Origin: an uncultured Oscillospiraceae bacterium
Lineage (GTDB): Bacteria; Bacillota; Clostridia; Oscillospirales; Ruminococcaceae
Length of the DNA stretch: 64,000 nucleotides
Reading direction: 5' to 3'
Assembly: GCA_900548355.1 (NCBI GenBank)
Contig: URKR01000007.1
Coordinates: 1 to 64,000 of the forward strand
Notes under the pieces: model-generated
The model's database searches: none
Seen by the model: only the letters and a program-made list of their open reading frames with translations
What the model was told of the DNA's origin: nothing
Program-made: the position numbers and the translations under genes
In this document: one piece after another, positions 40,165-49,557 of the stretch
Numbering within the stretch: position 1 is the first letter of the stretch
How the letters are laid out: each line of letters starts with the position of its first letter

Positions 40165-40208
40165 AAAGGGCACCTTCTTCTTATGGTTTGGCGCAGGCTT
40201 CTTTTGGC

Positions 40209-40237
40209 ATCATACCACAAAGCCGGCCACGCGGCAA
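40209..40237 (-). promoter_or_regulatory. promoter of the hydrolase gene
   Basis: Minus strand TTGCCG (40232-40237), 17 bp, TATGAT (40209-40214). Confidence 0.6.
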
Positions 40238-40299
40238 GCGGGCCGGCAACAGGGAAAGGTTTACCGTGTACGGAACCCGCTGTGCAGGCTCTGCCTGTC

Positions 40300-40328
40300 T
40301 TGACAGGGCGGCAGCGGCATGGTAGAAT
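40300..40328 (+). promoter_or_regulatory. pyr operon promoter
   Basis: TTGACA (40300-40305), 17 bp, TAGAAT (40323-40328). The transcript would start near 40335, giving a ~225-nt leader before pyrC that contains a short reading frame and a terminator. Confidence 0.8.
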
Positions 40329-40379
40329 ATTAAAAATCACGCAAAACCTCTGTAAAAAACCGTCGAAAGGAGGCGCCGC

Positions 40380-40469
40380 ATGCTGCGTTCTGTTGCCAAC
40401 AGCCATCGCAATCCGCATTTTGTCGGCGCTGTGTTTTTTCCTGACGGGACGCAGGGGTGCCTTTTTTAA
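40380..40469 (+). CDS. 29-residue leader peptide of the pyr operon
   Basis: ATG at 40380 after a perfect AAAGGAGG (40367-40374), 29 codons, TAA at 40467-40469. The peptide begins MLRSVANSHRNPHF and ends GTQGCLF; it has no run of one amino acid and no membrane segment. Two T6 runs lie in its coding sequence (40434-40439 and 40462-40467), and its stop codon overlaps the 5' arm of the attenuator terminator. The layout suggests a regulatory leader peptide whose translation keeps pace with RNA polymerase. Whether it is translated is not shown here. Confidence 0.7.
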   Translation: MLRSVANSHRNPHFVGAVFFPDGTQGCLF

Positions 40470-40500
40470 CTTTTCCCTTTTTCGGGAAAAGTTTTTTTTT
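40468..40500 (+). terminator. attenuator terminator upstream of pyrC
   Basis: Perfect 10-bp stem AACTTTTCCC (40468-40477) with GGGAAAAGTT (40484-40493), 6-nt loop, then TTTTTTT to 40500. It lies 60 bp before pyrC and after the leader frame, so it must be read through for the operon to be expressed. A ribosome stopped at the leader's TAA would cover the 5' arm. Confidence 0.9.
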
Positions 40501-40560
40501 GCCCATTCCGTCCCGGCCGCGCCGGGCCTGATTGCCGCGTGCTATGATAAGGAGGTTCCT

Positions 40561-41751
40561 ATGCTGATCCGCCATGCGAAGGATGCGAACGGCCGCATCT
40601 GTGACTTTCTTTTGCAGGATGGCAAAATTGCCGCCATCGGTATCAACCTGCCCGCCGCAGAAGGGGAAGAGGTGGTTGATGCCGCCGGCCTGACCATCCT
40701 GCCTGCCTTTATCGATACCCACTGCCACTGGCGTGAGCCGGGTTTCGAATATAAAGAGGACGTCGCGACCGGCTCGGCTGCTGCTGCGGCCGGCGGGTAT
40801 ACCTTTGTCAACCTGATGCCGAATACCAAGCCGGTCTGTTCCGACGCCGAAACCGCCCACGCCGTGATGGCCAGGGCGGCCGAGGTTGGCCTGTGCGATG
40901 CCAACCAGACTGTCTCGATTACCAGGAATTTTGACGGCCACACCCTGGACCATCTGCTCACCCTGCCGGACGACCTGCGCTACATTACCGAGGACGGCAA
41001 CGGCGTGCTGGATAACGCCGTGATGGCGCGTGCTTTCGCAATCGCAACCGACCGTGATCTGACCATTATGTCCCATGCCGAGGACCGGGAAATCAGCCCC
41101 TGGGATTACCGCCTGGCCGAAAATATCGAGACGCTGCGCAACTGCCACCTGGCTGAATACTATGGCACCAAGCTGCATATGTGCCATGTTTCGACCAAAG
41201 AGGCCGTCGATATGGTTCGGCAAAGCCGCCGGCGCGGCGCGCGGGTCAGCTGCGAGGTCACGCCCCACCACCTCTGGTTTGACGATAAGCGGCTGCGCTA
41301 CAAGGTTAACCCGCCCATCCGTGAAGCCGCCGATGTTCAGGCGCTGGTCCGCGCGATTCAGGACGGCACGGTCAGCTGCATCGGCACCGACCACGCCCCC
41401 CACACGGCGGAGGACAAGGCGGGCGGCGCGGCCGGTATGGTGGGGCTGGAGACCGCGTTCGGCGTCTGCTACACCAAACTCTGCCGGCTGGAAGGCTTAC
41501 CGCTGGAACACCTGAGCTTCCTGATGAGCGCCGGCCCGGCCGAACTGCTCGGTCTGGGTGACCGCAAGGGGCAGCTTGCCCCCGGCTATGACGCCGACAT
41601 CGTGCTGGTTGACCTTGACCATCTCTACACCGTCGAAGCCGAAAAGCTGCACTCCAAAAGCAAGAACTGCCCGTATGACGGGGAACGCCTCTACGGCCGC
41701 GTCGTGATGACGGTCAAGGGAGGAAAGGTCACCTACCGCGGCCAGGCGTAA
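40561..41751 (+). CDS. pyrC: dihydroorotase
   Basis: 396 residues. Closes carbamoyl-aspartate to dihydroorotate, third step of UMP synthesis. The ATG at 40561 follows AAGGAGG. The metal site is His54 and His56 in THCHWREPG (type I dihydroorotase), followed by NLMPNTKPV, MSHAED, the HVSTKEAV strand, EVTPHHL and the catalytic Asp in GTDHAPH. It lies behind the attenuator and is followed by a repeat-containing 180-bp gap before pyrF. No pyrB (aspartate transcarbamoylase) is in the window. Confidence 0.97.
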   Translation: MLIRHAKDANGRICDFLLQDGKIAAIGINLPAAEGEEVVDAAGLTILPAFIDTHCHWREPGFEYKEDVATGSAAAAAGGYTFVNLMPNTKPVCSDAETAHAVMARAAEVGLCDANQTVSITRNFDGHTLDHLLTLPDDLRYITEDGNGVLDNAVMARAFAIATDRDLTIMSHAEDREISPWDYRLAENIETLRNCHLAEYYGTKLHMCHVSTKEAVDMVRQSRRRGARVSCEVTPHHLWFDDKRLRYKVNPPIREAADVQALVRAIQDGTVSCIGTDHAPHTAEDKAGGAAGMVGLETAFGVCYTKLCRLEGLPLEHLSFLMSAGPAELLGLGDRKGQLAPGYDADIVLVDLDHLYTVEAEKLHSKSKNCPYDGERLYGRVVMTVKGGKVTYRGQA

Positions 41752-41930: not shown

Positions 41931-42797
41931 ATGACCAATATGGACAAACTGTATGCCAGTGTGGCGGCCTATGGGCCGGTCTGCGTCGGGCTGGATACCG
42001 AGCTCAGCTACCTGCCCGAGTCGGCCATCGATGCGACCAAAACAGCGGGGGAGAACCTCGTCGCCTACAACCGCGCCCTGATCGATGCGACCAAGGAGGT
42101 CGCCGGCTGCTACAAGGTGCAGATCGCCTACTATGAGGCGCTCGGCCTGGACGGGATGCGTGCCTACGCCGAAACCCTGCGCCTGGTGCGGGAATCCGGC
42201 CGGCCGGTCATCGCTGATATCAAGCGCGGCGACATTGCCAAGACCGCCGAAATGTACGCCAAAGCGCACTTCACCGGTGATTTTGAAGCCGACCTCATCA
42301 CGCTGGCCCCCTATATGGGTCTCGATTCGATCAGCCCCTACCTGCCTTACTGCCAGGAACAGGGCAAGGGCGTCTTTGTGCTCTGCCGTACCTCCAACCC
42401 CGGCCGGGTTGATTTTGAGTACCAGACCCTCGCCGACGGCCGCACCGTCTACACGATGGTCGGCGACGCGCTGACCAAGCTTGGGGCCGACTATATGGGC
42501 GAAAACGGCTATTCGAGCATCGGCCTTGTCATCGGCGGTACGACCGGCGAGGAAGCGGCCGAGATCCGCGCCCGCTACCAGAATACCTTCTTCCTGATCC
42601 CCGGCTACGGCGCTCAGGGCGGCAAGGCGGCCGACATCGCGCTGTATATGAAGCAGGGCAACGGCGGCGTTGTCAACTCCAGCCGCGGCATCCTGCTGGC
42701 CTGGAAGAAGCAGCCCGGCGTCGGTTACGCCGAAGCCGCCTACAACGAGTGTGTGCGGATGAAGGAGGATATCCAAAGTGCATGCGACAAACTGTAA
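41931..42797 (+). CDS. pyrF: orotidine 5'-phosphate decarboxylase (type 2)
   Basis: 288 residues. Final step to UMP. The catalytic motif DIKRGDIA contains Asp96, Lys98 and Asp101; TLAPYMGLDSISPYL and VVNSSRGILLAWK are typical of the long type-2 enzyme. The ATG at 41931 follows GGGAGGATAC. Its 3' end overlaps the pyrK start by 20 bp, with the pyrK ribosome site AAGGAGG lying inside it. Confidence 0.97.
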   Translation: MTNMDKLYASVAAYGPVCVGLDTELSYLPESAIDATKTAGENLVAYNRALIDATKEVAGCYKVQIAYYEALGLDGMRAYAETLRLVRESGRPVIADIKRGDIAKTAEMYAKAHFTGDFEADLITLAPYMGLDSISPYLPYCQEQGKGVFVLCRTSNPGRVDFEYQTLADGRTVYTMVGDALTKLGADYMGENGYSSIGLVIGGTTGEEAAEIRARYQNTFFLIPGYGAQGGKAADIALYMKQGNGGVVNSSRGILLAWKKQPGVGYAEAAYNECVRMKEDIQSACDKL

Positions 42798-43557
42798 GGT
42801 GACGGTCTGCGCGCAGGATATCGTTGCGCCGGACATCCGCCGTCTGGTCGTGGCCTGGGGAGAGGGCGAACCCCAAGCCTTCCCCCATGCCGGCCAGTTC
42901 TATATGCTGCGCGCCTGGCGGGCCGATGAAGCGCCGCTGCTCTCCCGCCCGATCAGCGTGCATGACTGCGACCCGGCCGCCAAAACCCTGACCTTCCTCT
43001 ACCAGGTCAAGGGCCCCGGCACAGAAAAGCTTGCCGCCTTGCGCCCCGGCGATACGATGCAGCTGACCGGCCCCTGCGGCAACGGCTTTGATACGGCCGC
43101 CGCGGCTGCGACCGGGCGGGTGGCCGTTGTGGGCGGCGGCATCGGTGTTGCGCCGCTGCTTCTGCTCTGCAAGGAACTGTCCGCTGCCGGCCCCAAGCCG
43201 GAGCTTTACGTCGGCTTCCGGGATGAACCCTACGGCCTTGAAGCCTTTTTGCCGTACTGCGGCGCGATCAGCGTTGCGACCGATTCGGGCGCGGCCGGCT
43301 ATCATGGCCTTGTGACCGGCATCCTGCACCCCGAAAACTTTGACCTTGTGCTGGCCTGCGGCCCTACCCCGATGATGCGCGGCGTTGCCGCTCTCTGCAA
43401 AGAAAAGGGCGTGCGCTGCCTGGTCAGCCTGGAGCGCAAGATGGCCTGCGGCCTGGGGGCGTGCCTGGGCTGCACCTGCCAGACCAAGGTCGGCCCGCGC
43501 ACCGTCTGCAAGGACGGGCCGGTATTCAGCGCAGAGGAGGTGTTTGACCTTGACTGA
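42778..43557 (+). CDS. pyrK: dihydroorotate dehydrogenase B, electron transfer subunit
   Basis: 259 residues with a GTG start at 42778 inside pyrF (AAGGAGG at 42763-42769). FAD-binding motif LLSRPISVHD, NAD-binding GGGIGVAPLLLL, and a C-terminal 2Fe-2S cluster with four Cys in ACGLGACLGCTC...C. It passes electrons from orotate formation to NAD+, defining the type 1B enzyme. It overlaps pyrD by 8 bp. Confidence 0.96.
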   Translation: MHATNCKVTVCAQDIVAPDIRRLVVAWGEGEPQAFPHAGQFYMLRAWRADEAPLLSRPISVHDCDPAAKTLTFLYQVKGPGTEKLAALRPGDTMQLTGPCGNGFDTAAAAATGRVAVVGGGIGVAPLLLLCKELSAAGPKPELYVGFRDEPYGLEAFLPYCGAISVATDSGAAGYHGLVTGILHPENFDLVLACGPTPMMRGVAALCKEKGVRCLVSLERKMACGLGACLGCTCQTKVGPRTVCKDGPVFSAEEVFDLD

Positions 43558-44476
43558 GCGAGCAAACGTTGACCTGCGGGTCAATCTGGCCGGCCGCACG
43601 CTGGCCGGGCCGGTCGTTGCGGCTTCGGGCACCTTCGGCTTCGGGCCGGAGTATGCGGGCATCGAGGATCTGCGGGTACTCGGCGGCATCTCGGGCAAGG
43701 GGCTCACGCTCCACGGCCAGCCCGGCAACCCCGGCGAGCGGCTGCTGGAAACCCCAGCCGGCCTGATGAACTCGATCGGGTTGCAGAACCCCGGCGTGCA
43801 GCACTTCATCGACCATGAACTGCCCGCGATGAAAACGCTGGGCACGATGGTCTGGGCAAACCTCGGCGGCCACACGGTGGAGGAAAACGTCGAGGGCGCG
43901 CGGCTCCTCTGCGAAGCCGGCATCGACTTCCTTGAGCTCAACATCAGCTGCCCCAACGTCAAGCAGGGCGGGCTTGCCTTCGGCATCCGCGCGCAGGATG
44001 CGCAGGAGGTTGTCTCGGCCGTGCGCAAGGAATGCACTGTGCCGCTGATCGTCAAGCTCAGCCCGCAGGCTGAAAAGCTGGTCGATATGTGCCAGGCCGT
44101 TGAGGCTGCCGGTGCGGATGGCATCAGTTTGTGCAACACCTTCCAGGCCTGTGCGATCGATATCGAGCGCCGCCGCCCGGTCTTTGCGAATACCTTCGCG
44201 GGGCTCTCGGGCCCGGCAATCCGGCCGATCGCGCTGCGGATGGTCTGGCAGGCGGTCGGGGCGGTCAAGATCCCAGTCGTCGGCCTTGGCGGTATTCTGA
44301 CCGGGCGGGACGCGCTGGAATTCATCATGGCCGGCGCGACCGCCGTTCAGGTCGGCACGGCCAACTTCCAGGACCCGCGTGCCTGTGAGCGCATTACGGG
44401 CGAGATTGCAAGCTGGATGGAAACCCACGGCGTCCGGACGCTGGACGAGATCCGCGGCTGTGCACGCCAGGCTTGA
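43550..44476 (+). CDS. pyrD: dihydroorotate dehydrogenase B, catalytic subunit
   Basis: 308 residues with a TTG start at 43550 and GAGGAGG at 43534-43540; longer readings in this frame would run into pyrK and are rejected. FMN barrel: PVVAASGTFGFGPEY, GLMNSIGLQNPG, LELNISCPNVKQGG with the active Cys, LSPQAEKLVDMC and VVGLGGILTGRDALEFIMAGATAVQVG. It oxidises dihydroorotate and works with PyrK. Last gene of the attenuated unit. Confidence 0.96.
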   Translation: MTERANVDLRVNLAGRTLAGPVVAASGTFGFGPEYAGIEDLRVLGGISGKGLTLHGQPGNPGERLLETPAGLMNSIGLQNPGVQHFIDHELPAMKTLGTMVWANLGGHTVEENVEGARLLCEAGIDFLELNISCPNVKQGGLAFGIRAQDAQEVVSAVRKECTVPLIVKLSPQAEKLVDMCQAVEAAGADGISLCNTFQACAIDIERRRPVFANTFAGLSGPAIRPIALRMVWQAVGAVKIPVVGLGGILTGRDALEFIMAGATAVQVGTANFQDPRACERITGEIASWMETHGVRTLDEIRGCARQA

Positions 44477-44568: not shown

Positions 44569-45165
44569 ATGGCTAGAGATGCGAAAGAAGTTTTGAAGGA
44601 ATGCGGCGCGTTTTTGGAAGGGCATTTTCTGCTTTCCAGCGGCCGGCACTCGGGTGCGTACTGCCAGATGGCCTACCTGCAGCAGTACCCGGAAGCCTGC
44701 GCCGAAGTGATGGCCCCGGTGGCCGAAAAGATCAAGGCGATGGATGTCGATGTCATCGTCGGCCCGGCGATGGGCGGCATTGTCTACGCTTATGAGCTGG
44801 GCCGCCAGTGCGGGAAGCGGGCGATCTTCACCGAGCGGGTTGACAATGTCATGACCCTCAAACGGTTTGCAATCCAGCCCGGCCAGCGCTGCCTGATCGC
44901 CGAAGATGTGGTGACAACCGGCGTTTCGAGCCTTGAAACCAAGCGGGTCATTGAGGAAGCCGGCGGTGTCTGCCTGGGCATTGTCTGCGTGGTTGACCGC
45001 ACGACGGCGGCTGCGCCTTCCCCGATCCCGATCCTTGCCAGCGCGCTCAAGCTTGAACTGCCCAACTACGCGCCGGAGGAATGCCCGATCTGCAAAGAGG
45101 GCAAGCTGCCGCTGGTGCACCTGGGCAGCCGTAAGATGAACCAGCAGGCGAAACAGACACTGTAA
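44569..45165 (+). CDS. pyrE: orotate phosphoribosyltransferase
   Basis: 198 residues. Joins orotate and PRPP to give OMP. GHFLLSSGRHSGAYCQM, DVIVGPAMGGIVYAYE, the PRPP loop CLIAEDVVTTGVSSLET and a C-terminal CPICKEGKLPLV stretch with two Cys (a longer tail than the E. coli enzyme, as in some bacterial groups). The ATG follows GACGGAGGG. 20 bp before carA. Confidence 0.96.
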   Translation: MARDAKEVLKECGAFLEGHFLLSSGRHSGAYCQMAYLQQYPEACAEVMAPVAEKIKAMDVDVIVGPAMGGIVYAYELGRQCGKRAIFTERVDNVMTLKRFAIQPGQRCLIAEDVVTTGVSSLETKRVIEEAGGVCLGIVCVVDRTTAAAPSPIPILASALKLELPNYAPEECPICKEGKLPLVHLGSRKMNQQAKQTL

Positions 45166-45185: not shown

Positions 45186-46316
45186 ATGCAGGCATATCTG
45201 ATTTTGGCAAACGGAACGGTGCTGCCCGGCCAAAGCATTGGCTGCCCCGGCACTACGGTGGGGGAGGTTGTCTTCGCCACCGGCATGGTCGGTTTTGAGG
45301 AAACCCTGACCGACCCGAGTTACTATGGCCAGATCATCACCCAGACCTATCCGCTGATCGGCAACTACGGCATGAACAGCGAGGATATGGAAAGCGACCG
45401 CATCTGGGCGAAAGGCTATATTGTGCGCGAAGCGTGCACCGCCCCGAGCAATTTCCGCAGCGAAAAAACGCTTGATACCTTCTTAAAGGAAAACGGGATC
45501 ATCGGCATTGAGGGAATCGATACCCGCAGCTTAACCCGCACGCTGCGCGAAAGCGGCGTTATGAACGGCGCCATCACGACCGAGCTTGACCCCGCGGCTG
45601 ACCCTGACCGCCTGGCAAGCCTGATGCAGCAGATCCAGGGGTATGCCGTGCGCGGCGCGGTCAAAGCGACCACCTGCGCCGGCGCCGAGACATACCCCGC
45701 CACCGCCGCCCCGAAAGACGGCGGCCCCGAGCTGCATGTCGCGCTGCTTGACCTTGGCTGCAAGCGCAACATTGTGCGCTGCCTGCAAAAGCGGGGCTGC
45801 AAGGTTACGGTGCTGCCCGGCACCTCGACGGTGGAAGACCTGGCCGCGCTGCGCCCCGACGGGCTCATGCTCTCAAACGGCCCCGGCGACCCGGCCGAGA
45901 ATACCGAGATTATTGAAAACATCCGCAAAATGCTCGATACCGGTATCCCGGCCTTCGGCATCTGCCTGGGCCACCAGCTCACGGCGCTCGCGGCCGGCGC
46001 CAAGACCAGCAAGATGAAGTACGGCCACCGCGGCGCGAACCAGCCGGTTACCGATTTTGCCACCGGCCGCACCTTTATCACAAGCCAGAACCACGGCTAC
46101 GCCGTGTTGGGCTCCACGCTGCCCGCCGGCGTGGGCCGCATCAGCCATGTCAATGCGAACGACAAAACCTGCGAAGGGGTCGAGTATGCACAGTGGAACT
46201 GCTTTACCGTGCAGTTCCACCCCGAAGCCAGCGGCGGCCCGCGGGATACCGAGTTTTTGTTTGACCGCTTTATCCAGAACATCCGCCGCATCAACCGCGT
46301 AAAAGGAGGGCTGTAA
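45186..46316 (+). CDS. carA: carbamoyl-phosphate synthase small subunit
   Basis: 376 residues. Glutaminase that supplies ammonia to CarB. The N-terminal half has GTVLPGQSIG and VVFATGMVGFEETLTDPSYYGQ; the class I amidotransferase half has the nucleophile Cys in FGICLGHQL, and the His/Glu pair in VQFHPEASGGP. The full length is present and it ends 1 bp before carB. Confidence 0.97.
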   Translation: MQAYLILANGTVLPGQSIGCPGTTVGEVVFATGMVGFEETLTDPSYYGQIITQTYPLIGNYGMNSEDMESDRIWAKGYIVREACTAPSNFRSEKTLDTFLKENGIIGIEGIDTRSLTRTLRESGVMNGAITTELDPAADPDRLASLMQQIQGYAVRGAVKATTCAGAETYPATAAPKDGGPELHVALLDLGCKRNIVRCLQKRGCKVTVLPGTSTVEDLAALRPDGLMLSNGPGDPAENTEIIENIRKMLDTGIPAFGICLGHQLTALAAGAKTSKMKYGHRGANQPVTDFATGRTFITSQNHGYAVLGSTLPAGVGRISHVNANDKTCEGVEYAQWNCFTVQFHPEASGGPRDTEFLFDRFIQNIRRINRVKGGL

Positions 46317-46317
46317 G

Positions 46318-49300
46318 ATGCCGAAAGACCCCCGCATCAAAAAGGTCATGGTGATCGGCTCCGGCCCGATCATCATCGGCCAGGCGGCCGAATTTGACTA
46401 TTCCGGCACCCAGGCCTGCCGCGCGCTCAAAAGCGAAGGCATCGAGACGGTGCTCGTCAACTCGAACCCCGCCACGATTATGACCGACCCCGATATCGCC
46501 GACCATGTCTATATCGAACCGCTGACCGCCGAAGTCGTTGAGCGGATCATCGAGAAAGAGCGCCCCGACGCGATTCTGCCGAACCTTGGCGGCCAGATGG
46601 GGCTCAACCTCAGTATGGAACTGGCCCGTTCGGGCTTCCTTGACCGCAGCGGCGTGCGGTTGCTGGCTTGCCGGCCCGATACGATCGACCGCGCCGAAGA
46701 CCGCCAGCTTTTCAAAGATACAATGGAAAAGCTGCACCAGCCGATCGTCCCCTCCAAGGTGGTCGAGGAGCTTGAGGACGCCGTCGAATACGCCGGCACG
46801 ATCGGCTACCCGGTCATCGTCCGCCCGGCCTTCACGATGGGCGGCACCGGCGGCGGCATCTGCGAGGATGAGGAAAAGCTGCGCGAAATCGCGACCAACG
46901 GCCTGCGCCTTTCGCCGATCCACCAGATCCTGGTTGAAAAGTGCATCGCCGGCTGGAAGGAAATCGAATACGAGGTCATGCGCGACGCCAAGGGCAACGT
47001 GATCACGGTCTGCAACATGGAAAACCTCGACCCCGTCGGCGTCCACACCGGCGATTCGATCGTTGTCGCGCCCAGCCAGACCCTTTCGGATAAAGAATAT
47101 CAGATGCTGCGCACCGCCGCGCTCGACATCATCACCGAGCTCGGCATCGAAGGCGGCTGCAACTGCCAGTTCGCCCTCAAGCCGGACAGTTTCGAGTATG
47201 CGGTCATCGAGGTCAACCCCCGCGTGTCCCGCTCCTCGGCGCTGGCCTCCAAGGCGACCGGCTACCCGATCGCCAAGGTCGCGACCAAGATTGCCCTCGG
47301 CTATACCCTCGACGAGATCACCAACGACGTCACCGGCGAAACCTGCGCCTGCTTTGAGCCGGCGCTTGACTATGTCGTCGTCAAATACCCGAAATGGCCG
47401 TTTGATAAGTTTGTCTATGCGGACAAATCCCTCGGCACCCAGATGATGGCCACCGGCGAGGTCATGGCGATCGGCAACAATTTTGAGCACGCGCTGATGA
47501 AGGCGGTCTCTTCGATCGAGCTCGGCATGGACACCCTGACCCTGCCTGACTTCGAGAAACTCCCGACCGAGGAAATCATCGACCATCTGCACGTCCAGGA
47601 TTCCGAGCGCGCCTTCTGTGTTTATGAGGCGCTCAAGCGCGGCGTCGATCACAAGACGATCTATGACATCACCAAGATCGACTGGTGGTTCCTGGATAAG
47701 ATGCAGCACCTCGCGGACCTCGAGCTCGGCTTGAAGGAAGGCGAGCTGACCCGTGAAAAGTACCTCGAAGCGAAGAAGTACGGCTTTTTGGATAAGACGA
47801 TCCGCCGCCTTTCCGGCACCGAGGCCCTGCCGGTGGAAGACCTGCACGCCTCCTTTAAGATGGTCGATACCTGTGCGGCCGAGTTTGCGGCCAAGACCCC
47901 ATATTTCTACTCGACCTACGATGAGGACAACGAGGCCGCCGGCTTCATCGCCGAGCACAGTGATGAAAAGCGCAAGAAGGTGCTCGTCTTTGGCTCTGGC
48001 CCGATCCGCATCGGCCAGGGCATTGAGTTCGATTACTGCTCGGTACACGCGGTCTGGACGCTCAAAAAGCACGGCTGCGAGGCCATCCTGATCAACAACA
48101 ACCCCGAGACTGTCTCCACCGACTTTGATACCGGCGACCGGCTCTATTTCGACCCGCTCAACCCCGAAAGTGTTGACAACATCATCGCAACCGAAAAACC
48201 GGACGCCTGCCTTGTGCAGTTCGGCGGCCAGACCGCGATCAAGCTGGCCAACCATATGGACGAGATCGGCCTGCCGATTCTCGGCACCCCGGCCGACGCA
48301 ATTGACGAAGCCGAGGATCGTGAGCGGTTCGACGAGCTGCTCGAACGCTGCGGCATCCCGCGCCCCGAGGGCCGCACCGTTTACACCCTGGAGCAAGCGC
48401 TCAAGGCGGCCGAAGAAGTCGGCTACCCGGTGCTCATGCGGCCTTCCTATGTGTTGGGCGGCCAGAACATGATCGTAGCCTACAACTCGGCCGATGTTGT
48501 CGAATATATGGGGGTCATCACGGCCCATGTCGATATGTCCCACCCGGTGCTGATGGACAAGTACATCTATGGCACCGAATGTGAAGTCGATGCAATCTGC
48601 GATGGCGAAGATTACCTTGTCCCCGGCATCATGGAGCAGATCGAGCGCACCGGCGTACACTCGGGCGACTCGATCTGCGTCTACCCGCCGTATGATTTCC
48701 CGCAGAGCGTCATCGATACCCTGGTCGATTACACCGGCCGGTTTGCGCGGGAGCTCAAGGTCGTCGGCCTTGTCAACGTGCAGTATGCGGTGCAGAACGG
48801 CAAGGTGTATGTCATTGAGGTCAACCCCCGCTCTTCCCGCACCGTGCCGTACATCAGCAAGGTTACCGGCGTGCCGATGGTCGATCTGGCCGTGCGCTGC
48901 ACGCTGGGCGAAAAGCTCCGGGATATGGGCTATGGCACCGGGCTGTGGCGCGGCGGCCAGAGCCCGTACTACGCGGTCAAGGTGCCGGTTTACAGCTTCC
49001 TCAAGCTGCACGGCGTCGATACGATGCTCGGCCCCGAGATGAAATCGACCGGCGAGGTGCTTGGCATTGCGCCCACCTTCCATGAGGCGATGATGAAAGG
49101 CCTTGTCGCGGCCGGTTATCAGTTCAAGACCCCCGGCCCCGGCTCCTGTGTGATCATTACGGTCAAAGATGCCGACAAGGCGGAAGCCGCTGACCTTGCC
49201 TGGAAACTGCATGATTATGGGTACAAAATCTACGGTACGCCGGGCACGGCGCGGTATCTCAACAGCCAGATGATCCCCTGCAGCGTTGTGCGCCAGATGA

Positions 49301-49557
49301 GCGGCGAACGGCCGAATGCGATCGATTTGCTTGAGAGCGGGCTGGTGGATTACATCATCTCAACAAGCCCGCACGGGCGTGACCCGCACCGGGATTCGGT
49401 CAAGTTCCGCCGCAAGGCGACCGAGCTTTCGATCCCCTGCATCACGGCGCTGGACACCGCCCGGGTTTTGGTCGATGCTTTGCGCGGGGACCATGACATC
49501 AGCAAGATGGAACTGGTGGATGTGGCCACTCTGCACCGTGAGGCGGCGGCGCGCTAA
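46318..49557 (+). CDS. carB: carbamoyl-phosphate synthase large subunit
   Basis: 1079 residues, the normal length. Two homologous ATP-grasp halves: the first has PKDPRIKKVMVIGSGPIIIGQAAEFDYSG and VNPRVSRSSALASKATG; the second begins at about 550 with VLVFGSGPIRIGQGIEFDYC and has VEVNPRSSRTVPYISK. A C-terminal MGS-like regulatory domain covers about 935-1075. It makes carbamoyl phosphate from bicarbonate, ammonia and two ATP for pyrimidine and arginine synthesis. A weak terminator follows at 49629. Confidence 0.98.
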   Translation: MPKDPRIKKVMVIGSGPIIIGQAAEFDYSGTQACRALKSEGIETVLVNSNPATIMTDPDIADHVYIEPLTAEVVERIIEKERPDAILPNLGGQMGLNLSMELARSGFLDRSGVRLLACRPDTIDRAEDRQLFKDTMEKLHQPIVPSKVVEELEDAVEYAGTIGYPVIVRPAFTMGGTGGGICEDEEKLREIATNGLRLSPIHQILVEKCIAGWKEIEYEVMRDAKGNVITVCNMENLDPVGVHTGDSIVVAPSQTLSDKEYQMLRTAALDIITELGIEGGCNCQFALKPDSFEYAVIEVNPRVSRSSALASKATGYPIAKVATKIALGYTLDEITNDVTGETCACFEPALDYVVVKYPKWPFDKFVYADKSLGTQMMATGEVMAIGNNFEHALMKAVSSIELGMDTLTLPDFEKLPTEEIIDHLHVQDSERAFCVYEALKRGVDHKTIYDITKIDWWFLDKMQHLADLELGLKEGELTREKYLEAKKYGFLDKTIRRLSGTEALPVEDLHASFKMVDTCAAEFAAKTPYFYSTYDEDNEAAGFIAEHSDEKRKKVLVFGSGPIRIGQGIEFDYCSVHAVWTLKKHGCEAILINNNPETVSTDFDTGDRLYFDPLNPESVDNIIATEKPDACLVQFGGQTAIKLANHMDEIGLPILGTPADAIDEAEDRERFDELLERCGIPRPEGRTVYTLEQALKAAEEVGYPVLMRPSYVLGGQNMIVAYNSADVVEYMGVITAHVDMSHPVLMDKYIYGTECEVDAICDGEDYLVPGIMEQIERTGVHSGDSICVYPPYDFPQSVIDTLVDYTGRFARELKVVGLVNVQYAVQNGKVYVIEVNPRSSRTVPYISKVTGVPMVDLAVRCTLGEKLRDMGYGTGLWRGGQSPYYAVKVPVYSFLKLHGVDTMLGPEMKSTGEVLGIAPTFHEAMMKGLVAAGYQFKTPGPGSCVIITVKDADKAEAADLAWKLHDYGYKIYGTPGTARYLNSQMIPCSVVRQMSGERPNAIDLLESGLVDYIISTSPHGRDPHRDSVKFRRKATELSIPCITALDTARVLVDALRGDHDISKMELVDVATLHREAAAR

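Follow-up and report, generated by a model that had tools for sequence, protein, structure and literature searches.

In the rph-pyrE operon of E. coli, the upstream ORF ends just before a terminator stem, with a U-rich tract and UTP-sensitive coupling of transcription and translation. The leader ORF of pyrBI in the same organism, pyrL (NC_000913), carries a UUUUUCUUCCCG tract, encoding FFFP, that lies about 20 nt 5′ of the stem. As reported in the accessible part of an E. coli study, termination fell from ∼90% to <10% once a stop codon lying 28 bp before a terminator was shifted to 5 bp before it, and this effect vanished when translation was uncoupled (PMC4824070). Histidine leader peptides of bacilli were described as, to the knowledge of their authors, the first outside Proteobacteria and Actinobacteria except for ermC, and no pyr leader is named in the portion of that article available to us (PMC2965389).

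We analyzed a stretch of 64,000 nt from an uncultured Oscillospiraceae bacterium, referred to as the window, which contains a short ORF ending on an intrinsic terminator ahead of pyrC. This leader probably attenuates transcription of the pyrC-F-K-D-E-carAB operon in the manner of pyrBI, with a ribosome-mediated response to UTP. Among the literature matches listed, consisting of titles and abstract openings with subscription journals mostly outside, no paper on such a leader in Faecalibacterium or other Firmicutes was found.

The leader locus and its occurrence in related genomes

The features of the locus are collected in Table 1. A sequence-only reading of the window had described a promoter, a ribosome site, a 29-codon ORF and a TAA on the 5′ arm of a 10-bp terminator; all of these were confirmed and correctly placed. 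By reading of the sequence, the −35 (TTGACA, 40300-40305) and −10 (TAGAAT, 40323-40328) elements have 11 of 12 matches and a spacer of 17. A promoter-like TTGAC/TANNNT pair lies 5′ of 67/67 leaders by a loose pattern that allowed five −35 variants and was applied without a shuffle control. The 10 pairs of the terminator stem join 40468-40477 to 40484-40493, and the stop codon contributes its final two bases as the first two of the stem. Both T6 runs of the earlier reading are present, with the correction that the last T of the second belongs to the stop codon as well. The ATG of pyrC lies 60 bp 3′ of the terminator T tail, as had been described for a pyrC-F-K-D operon; NCBIfam profiles extend the order of genes behind the leader to pyrC-F-K-D-E-carA-carB. 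The nearest relatives of the window PyrC are those of Candidatus Gemmiger MAGs, with 82-83% identity, so that the window probably belongs to a Gemmiger-like genome of the Clostridia.

Table 1. Leader and operon features in the window
Feature	Position	Strand	Basis
Sigma-70-type promoter, TTGACA-17-TAGAAT, TG-extended −10	40300-40328	+	sequence
Leader ORF Shine-Dalgarno (SD), AAAGGAGG	40366-40373	+	sequence; 6 nt 5′ of ATG 40380
Leader-peptide ORF (predicted), 29 codons, MLRSVANSHRNPHFVGAVFFPDGTQGCLF, stop TAA 40467-40469	40380-40469	+	sequence, conservation, frame-specific constraint
First U tract, T6, codons FF of GAVFFPD; putative pause tract	40434-40439	+	U peak in relatives
Second U tract, T6, running into stop codon	40462-40467	+	U peak in relatives
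Intrinsic terminator hairpin, AACTTTTCCC-TTTTTC-GGGAAAAGTT	40468-40493	+	sequence; MFE folds
Terminator T7 tail	40494-40500	+	sequence
pyrC ribosome site, AAGGAGG	40549-40555	+	sequence
pyrC, dihydroorotase, first gene of operon	40561-41751	+	TIGR00857 above cut-off
pyrF	41931-42797	+	NCBIfam above cut-off; ORF
pyrK	42778-43557	+	NCBIfam above cut-off; ORF
pyrD	about 43571-44476 (start approximate)	+	NCBIfam above cut-off; ORF
pyrE	44569-45165	+	NCBIfam above cut-off; ORF
carA	45186-46316	+	NCBIfam above cut-off; ORF
carB	46318-49557	+	NCBIfam above cut-off; ORF

Relatives were sampled both as loci picked by PyrC similarity (L001-L025 and L027) and as loci found by the terminator pattern alone. 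The terminator expression gave 112 matches and, after merging of identical ones, 71 distinct leaders: 26 obtained via PyrC similarity, the window, and 44 obtained from the pattern without use of the gene. Locus L026 has no match to the pattern, and the distant PyrC loci L028-L080 are outside this count. The gene behind the leader, in the clade of Gemmiger, Faecalibacterium, Fournierella and Anaerofilum, is pyrC in 66 of the 71 and pyrB in the other five. The pattern matched at most once per genome in every genome set scanned. It is present in 9/9 of the first genomes scanned, in 27/35 from the genus of G003 (Gemmiger, L007) and in 25/31 from the genus of G005 (Faecalibacterium, L014). In a draw of 396 genomes from the family of G005 it was found in 32; two of these (G040 and G061) were counted by the pattern only, with no locus obtained. 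Among the 14 genus-level misses, pyrC was found in 10, all with a variant of the leader whose stop is at −3/−4 in nine and in the loop in one (L190); the remaining four have no pyrC match at E ≤ 1e-60. Another 14 genomes without PyrR or the motif yielded seven pyrC matches, one of them with the leader (L194). No leader was found before pyrC in the other six, in 290 nt read (200 in L196; partly N in L198); in L195 pyrB precedes pyrC, and there the reading covered the sequence directly before pyrC.

In the Anaerofilum loci L016 and L020 (1601-1960), the leader is followed first by pyrB and then by pyrC, and it stands at the head of a pyrB-pyrC operon. The C-terminal stretch of the pyrB protein in both is cysteine-rich and, by eye, similar to PyrI. 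Among the genomes of Gemmiger, Faecalibacterium and Fournierella that were read (L172-L180, L182 and L183), pyrB stands apart from the pyrC operon, and reading of the 330 nt before these 11 pyrB homologues revealed no such leader. ATCase in those genomes may therefore be regulated separately.

Outside the clade, a scan of up to 2.6 kb 5′ of pyrC in L026-L080 (55 loci) gave six loci. The only one with an ORF ending at the stem (−1) is L027, itself a clade member; L047 (−10) and L077 (−5) are PyrR leaders, and the ORFs of L028, L037 and L060 end 33-40 nt past the stem start. A class-wide pattern scan gave 0/391, a weak negative: an A was required ahead of CTTTTCC, and G005 itself escaped the pattern. 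A search for distant DNA matches in E. coli genomes found none. Comparison of the related leaders, along the lines of the alignment of pyrC leaders from Faecalibacterium-like genomes that had been suggested as a check, shows the ORF with its stop at the stem kept in 67/71. We conclude that the leader is a conserved, putatively regulatory device of the Gemmiger/Faecalibacterium/Fournierella/Anaerofilum clade.

The short ORF, its U-rich tracts and the folded leader

Under a strict rule (SD, 12-33 codons and a stop at −3 or −4 from CTTTTC), an ORF was found in these 67 leaders, with lengths of 16-32 codons, 26 of them being 29 codons. The starts are ATG in 60, TTG in four and GTG in three, and the stops are TGA in 55, TAA in nine and TAG in three, in register −3 in 50 and −4 in 17. 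Since both stop codons and registers alternate, it is the stop itself that is conserved and not a fixed DNA motif. Three further leaders (L025, L100 and L110) depart from the rule only in SD spacing, with the ORF present by eye, while in L111 the stop lies 14 nt inside the hairpin. The ORFs of L111 and of L190, the latter outside the 71, run into the terminator stem, a layout nearer to that of E. coli pyrL.

A control rule (SD, 12-45 codons, stop between −4 and +2 relative to the stem) was applied alike to all sites. In 232 kb of the window and clade loci, it was satisfied by 24/25 pyr leaders versus 0/43 other terminator-like sites. With 800 kb of Faecalibacterium G005 that do not include the pyr locus, the comparison was 25/26 pyr leaders versus 2/236 sites, and the rule picked out 0/45 sites in a Clostridium (400 kb) and 0/68 in E. 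coli (300 kb). The two G005 sites with an SD-led short ORF ending at a stem are L206 10435 and L243 9481. The in-frame pN/pS over 21 disjoint pairs is 0.56, compared with 0.87 and 1.06 off frame, with scatter among single pairs (3 of the 20 with a defined ratio exceed 1.05, one reaching 3.0). By this pattern the ORF behaves as translated, with the peptide only loosely constrained. We read it as an SD-led ORF that extends up to the terminator and is predicted to be translated.

U-rich tracts were counted in 41 representative leaders of <80% identity. The U content peaks twice, at −1 to −9 relative to the stop (56%) and at −28 to −36 (41%), and it is 36% and 28% in the stretches between. At fourfold sites, U amounts to 33% in leaders versus 7% in the downstream genes of the same genomes (A, 9% versus 5%). 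The ratio TTT:TTC is 114:43 in leaders versus 178:220 in downstream genes (p 2e-9), and Phe is 5.9-fold enriched (157/1038 versus 398/15458). Thus U is favoured at synonymous and replacement sites alike. The first U run is often interrupted by TTC (e.g. GTGTTCTTTCC) and is absent in L006 and L112. TTNTTT, given as the B. subtilis NusG pause motif in the text available from PMC9226507, occurs in 27/41 representative ORFs versus a mean of 19.9 (sd 2.9) after shuffling of the codons (p 0.013). It mostly ends at the stop or near −30, and 14/41 are without it; nusG is present in G003 (Gemmiger).

Consensus structures computed for 28 Gemmiger-type and for 16 Faecalibacterium-type leaders each contain the terminator and one 4-bp pairing; the covariation terms, +0.70 and +0.54, are not in favour of either. 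The terminator hairpin is kept in the MFE structure of 67/67 folded leaders, and its 5′ arm is inside the local hairpin in all 67. The terminator is the sole well-supported RNA structure common to the leaders. The GGCGC/GUGCC pairing previously put forward as a pause hairpin does exist (40425-40429/40457-40461) and would close a 27-nt loop containing the first U run, but a pausing role is unsupported: all five pairs are kept in only 4/28 close relatives, the window included, and the pairing is missing from the consensus fold. A duplex of the leader SD with the pyrimidine-rich 5′ arm has a mean of −8.8 kcal/mol versus −6.3 kcal/mol for shuffled SD regions. As an antiterminator it was rejected, the arm being paired to the SD in 0/67 MFE structures and within the terminator in 67/67. 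With the terminator removed, the ORF region of the 41 leaders is somewhat more stably folded than shuffled sequences (mean z −1.77), with no common structure; for 40340-40466 of the window the z value is −2.13.

Proposed mechanism and alternatives

When UTP is ample, RNA polymerase would outpace the leading ribosome and stop at the terminator. When UTP is scarce, the polymerase would linger in the U tracts, perhaps aided by NusG at TTNTTT-like sites, and the ribosome could catch up so as to be at the stop codon while the hairpin is made. The footprint of the ribosome over the 10-nt 5′ arm would then prevent the hairpin and allow transcription into pyrC. A ribosome at a stop codon covers roughly 12 nt beyond it; past the TAA this would shield the entire 5′ arm at 40468-40477. 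The leader peptide itself is probably functionless, and translation together with a U-rich template would be what counts. The preference of the sequence-only reading for a pyrBI-like leader-peptide attenuator over a PyrR-dependent one is thus upheld by conservation, the frame, the U tracts, the stop position, the absence of PyrR and the lack of an antiterminator.

The finding that RNA polymerase outruns ribosomes in B. subtilis, as given in the part of PMC9226507 at hand, counts against the model. So do the leaders with a broken or missing first U run, the four leaders outside the strict ORF rule together with L190, the scatter of pN/pS among single pairs, and the 214/396 family genomes that carry neither PyrR nor the motif. 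We also measured distances from gene stops to stems, in a small, biased sample with home-made gene calls and a script that finds only 1/26 pyr leaders. The stem lies ≤12 nt from a gene stop in 22/64 cases in Faecalibacterium G005, 5/26 in E. coli and 3/12 in Clostridium, and overlaps the stop in 0/64, 1/26 and 0/12, respectively. These distances hint that ordinary coupling is looser in this clade. Looser coupling may fit a scheme in which termination is the default and coupling occurs only at pauses, yet it could also weaken the model.

Alternatively, the peptide could be the sensor, with a ligand-sensing arrest peptide of the TnaC or SpeFL kind stalling the ribosome. A ribosome stalled at the stop codon would sit over the 5′ arm, an FFP or LFP motif is repeatedly present some 10 codons ahead of the stop, Phe residues are common at codons −1, −6, −10, −11 and −16 of the 41 representatives, and pN/pS is below 1. 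However, the frame constraint is weak at 0.56, the last residues are highly variable (LF, RI, LS, SV, AQ, ES, KI, VE), and a peptide sensor leaves the U enrichment at synonymous sites unexplained; we believe this alternative to be unlikely. We give a somewhat smaller chance to NusG-dependent pausing at TTNTTT that synchronises ribosome and polymerase, in which case the signal would be translation rate or growth state and not UTP. It draws on the excess of the motif over shuffles, on nusG in G003 and on the B. subtilis precedents tlrB and vmlR, as far as they are described in the available text of PMC6851288 and PMC9226507. The enrichment is nevertheless modest, the motif is missing from 14/41 leaders, and a pyr operon behind the leader in 71/71 points to a pyrimidine signal. 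It is similarly improbable that a clade without PyrR evolved, independently of Enterobacteria, a single ORF combining two sensors of pyrimidine state, one by polymerase pausing and one by ribosome arrest on the FFP/LFP peptide.

An overlooked PyrR-type or riboswitch attenuator is very unlikely. In the window no Rfam family except a tRNA is over threshold, and 40200-40700 searched against Rfam at E ≤ 1 gave only a 14-bit chance match. No PyrR site was detected in 18 clade loci at gathering score, in 20 clade loci at E ≤ 0.1, or in L024 and L025 with the same library. That library does find PyrR sites in L028 and L030 (Clostridium) and L060 (Peribacillus) and, below gathering score, in L047 and L077 (Ruminococcus-labelled MAGs). 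These five sites are 0.6-2.6 kb 5′ of pyrC, and in L077 pyrR lies between the site and pyrC. The sites upstream of pyrC in these loci and the mean z of −1.77 for the leaders without the terminator are what speak for such an attenuator; no common structure accompanies that z value beyond the terminator and the weak 4-bp pairing. The earlier statement that the window leader has no PyrR-type loop is borne out by these searches of the window and clade loci. No PyrR protein scored over the cut-off in the genomes of 12 clade relatives (best 28 bits versus 138). In the family draw, PyrR at E ≤ 1e-25 was found in 0/32 genomes with the leader motif versus 150/364 others, in a search that often scored only eight first-look candidates per genome (Fisher p 1.3e-7, kinship ignored). 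Neither PyrR nor the motif is carried by 214/396 of these genomes, so that the absence of PyrR is not always paired with this leader. Within the clade, the short ORF on the terminator apparently stands in for the Firmicute regulator PyrR as a ribosome-based UTP sensor.

A Phe-tRNA attenuator with the Phe codons as sensor, to which the Phe enrichment might point, is very unlikely, as there is no antiterminator, the 5′ arm is held in the local hairpin in 67/67, other codons favour U too, the controlled genes make pyrimidines, and the stop overlaps the stem. Amino-acid attenuators have the terminator >20 bp from the leader gene according to the portion of PMC4824070 we could consult, so the stop-on-stem layout, taken with the spacing results of that source, fits pyrBI logic and not amino-acid logic.

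Relation to known attenuators

If the proposed UTP-sensing mechanism is true, polymerase-ribosome-coupled nucleotide sensing, known from Enterobacteria, arose separately in PyrR-less gut Clostridia. The 71 leader variants would be material for testing what makes a pause UTP-sensitive, and the leader would provide a natural readout of how transcription and translation are coupled in Firmicutes; for B. subtilis, the accessible text of PMC9226507 speaks of an uncoupled state.

PyrR attenuators (RF00515) likewise regulate pyrimidine genes by transcription attenuation, in related and more distant Firmicutes, but they need PyrR and an RNA binding loop, neither of which was found in the clade. The tlrB and vmlR leaders of B. 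subtilis, as far as described in the available parts of PMC6851288 and PMC9226507, also combine polymerase pausing with ribosomes on a short upstream ORF in Firmicute attenuation; they differ in relying on antibiotic-stalled ribosomes, resistance genes and further RNA structures. With E. coli pyrBI and its leader pyrL, the clade leaders share a short leader ORF, a U-rich tract about 20-30 nt 5′ of an intrinsic terminator, FFP-like coding of that tract and a pyrimidine operon. In contrast to pyrBI, they control pyrC or pyrB-pyrC and the genes behind, and they do so in Clostridia. None of six clade peptides matched the PyrL families PF08052 (PyrBI_leader) and NF007587 at E ≤ 5, while E. coli PyrL matches both. 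The leader thus probably works like pyrBI and probably arose separately. With its 44 codons, pyrL continues through the terminator, but the clade ORF of 16-32 codons stops on the stem. This stop-at-stem layout is nearer to that of rph-pyrE, in which the upstream ORF is the full-length gene rph rather than a short leader.
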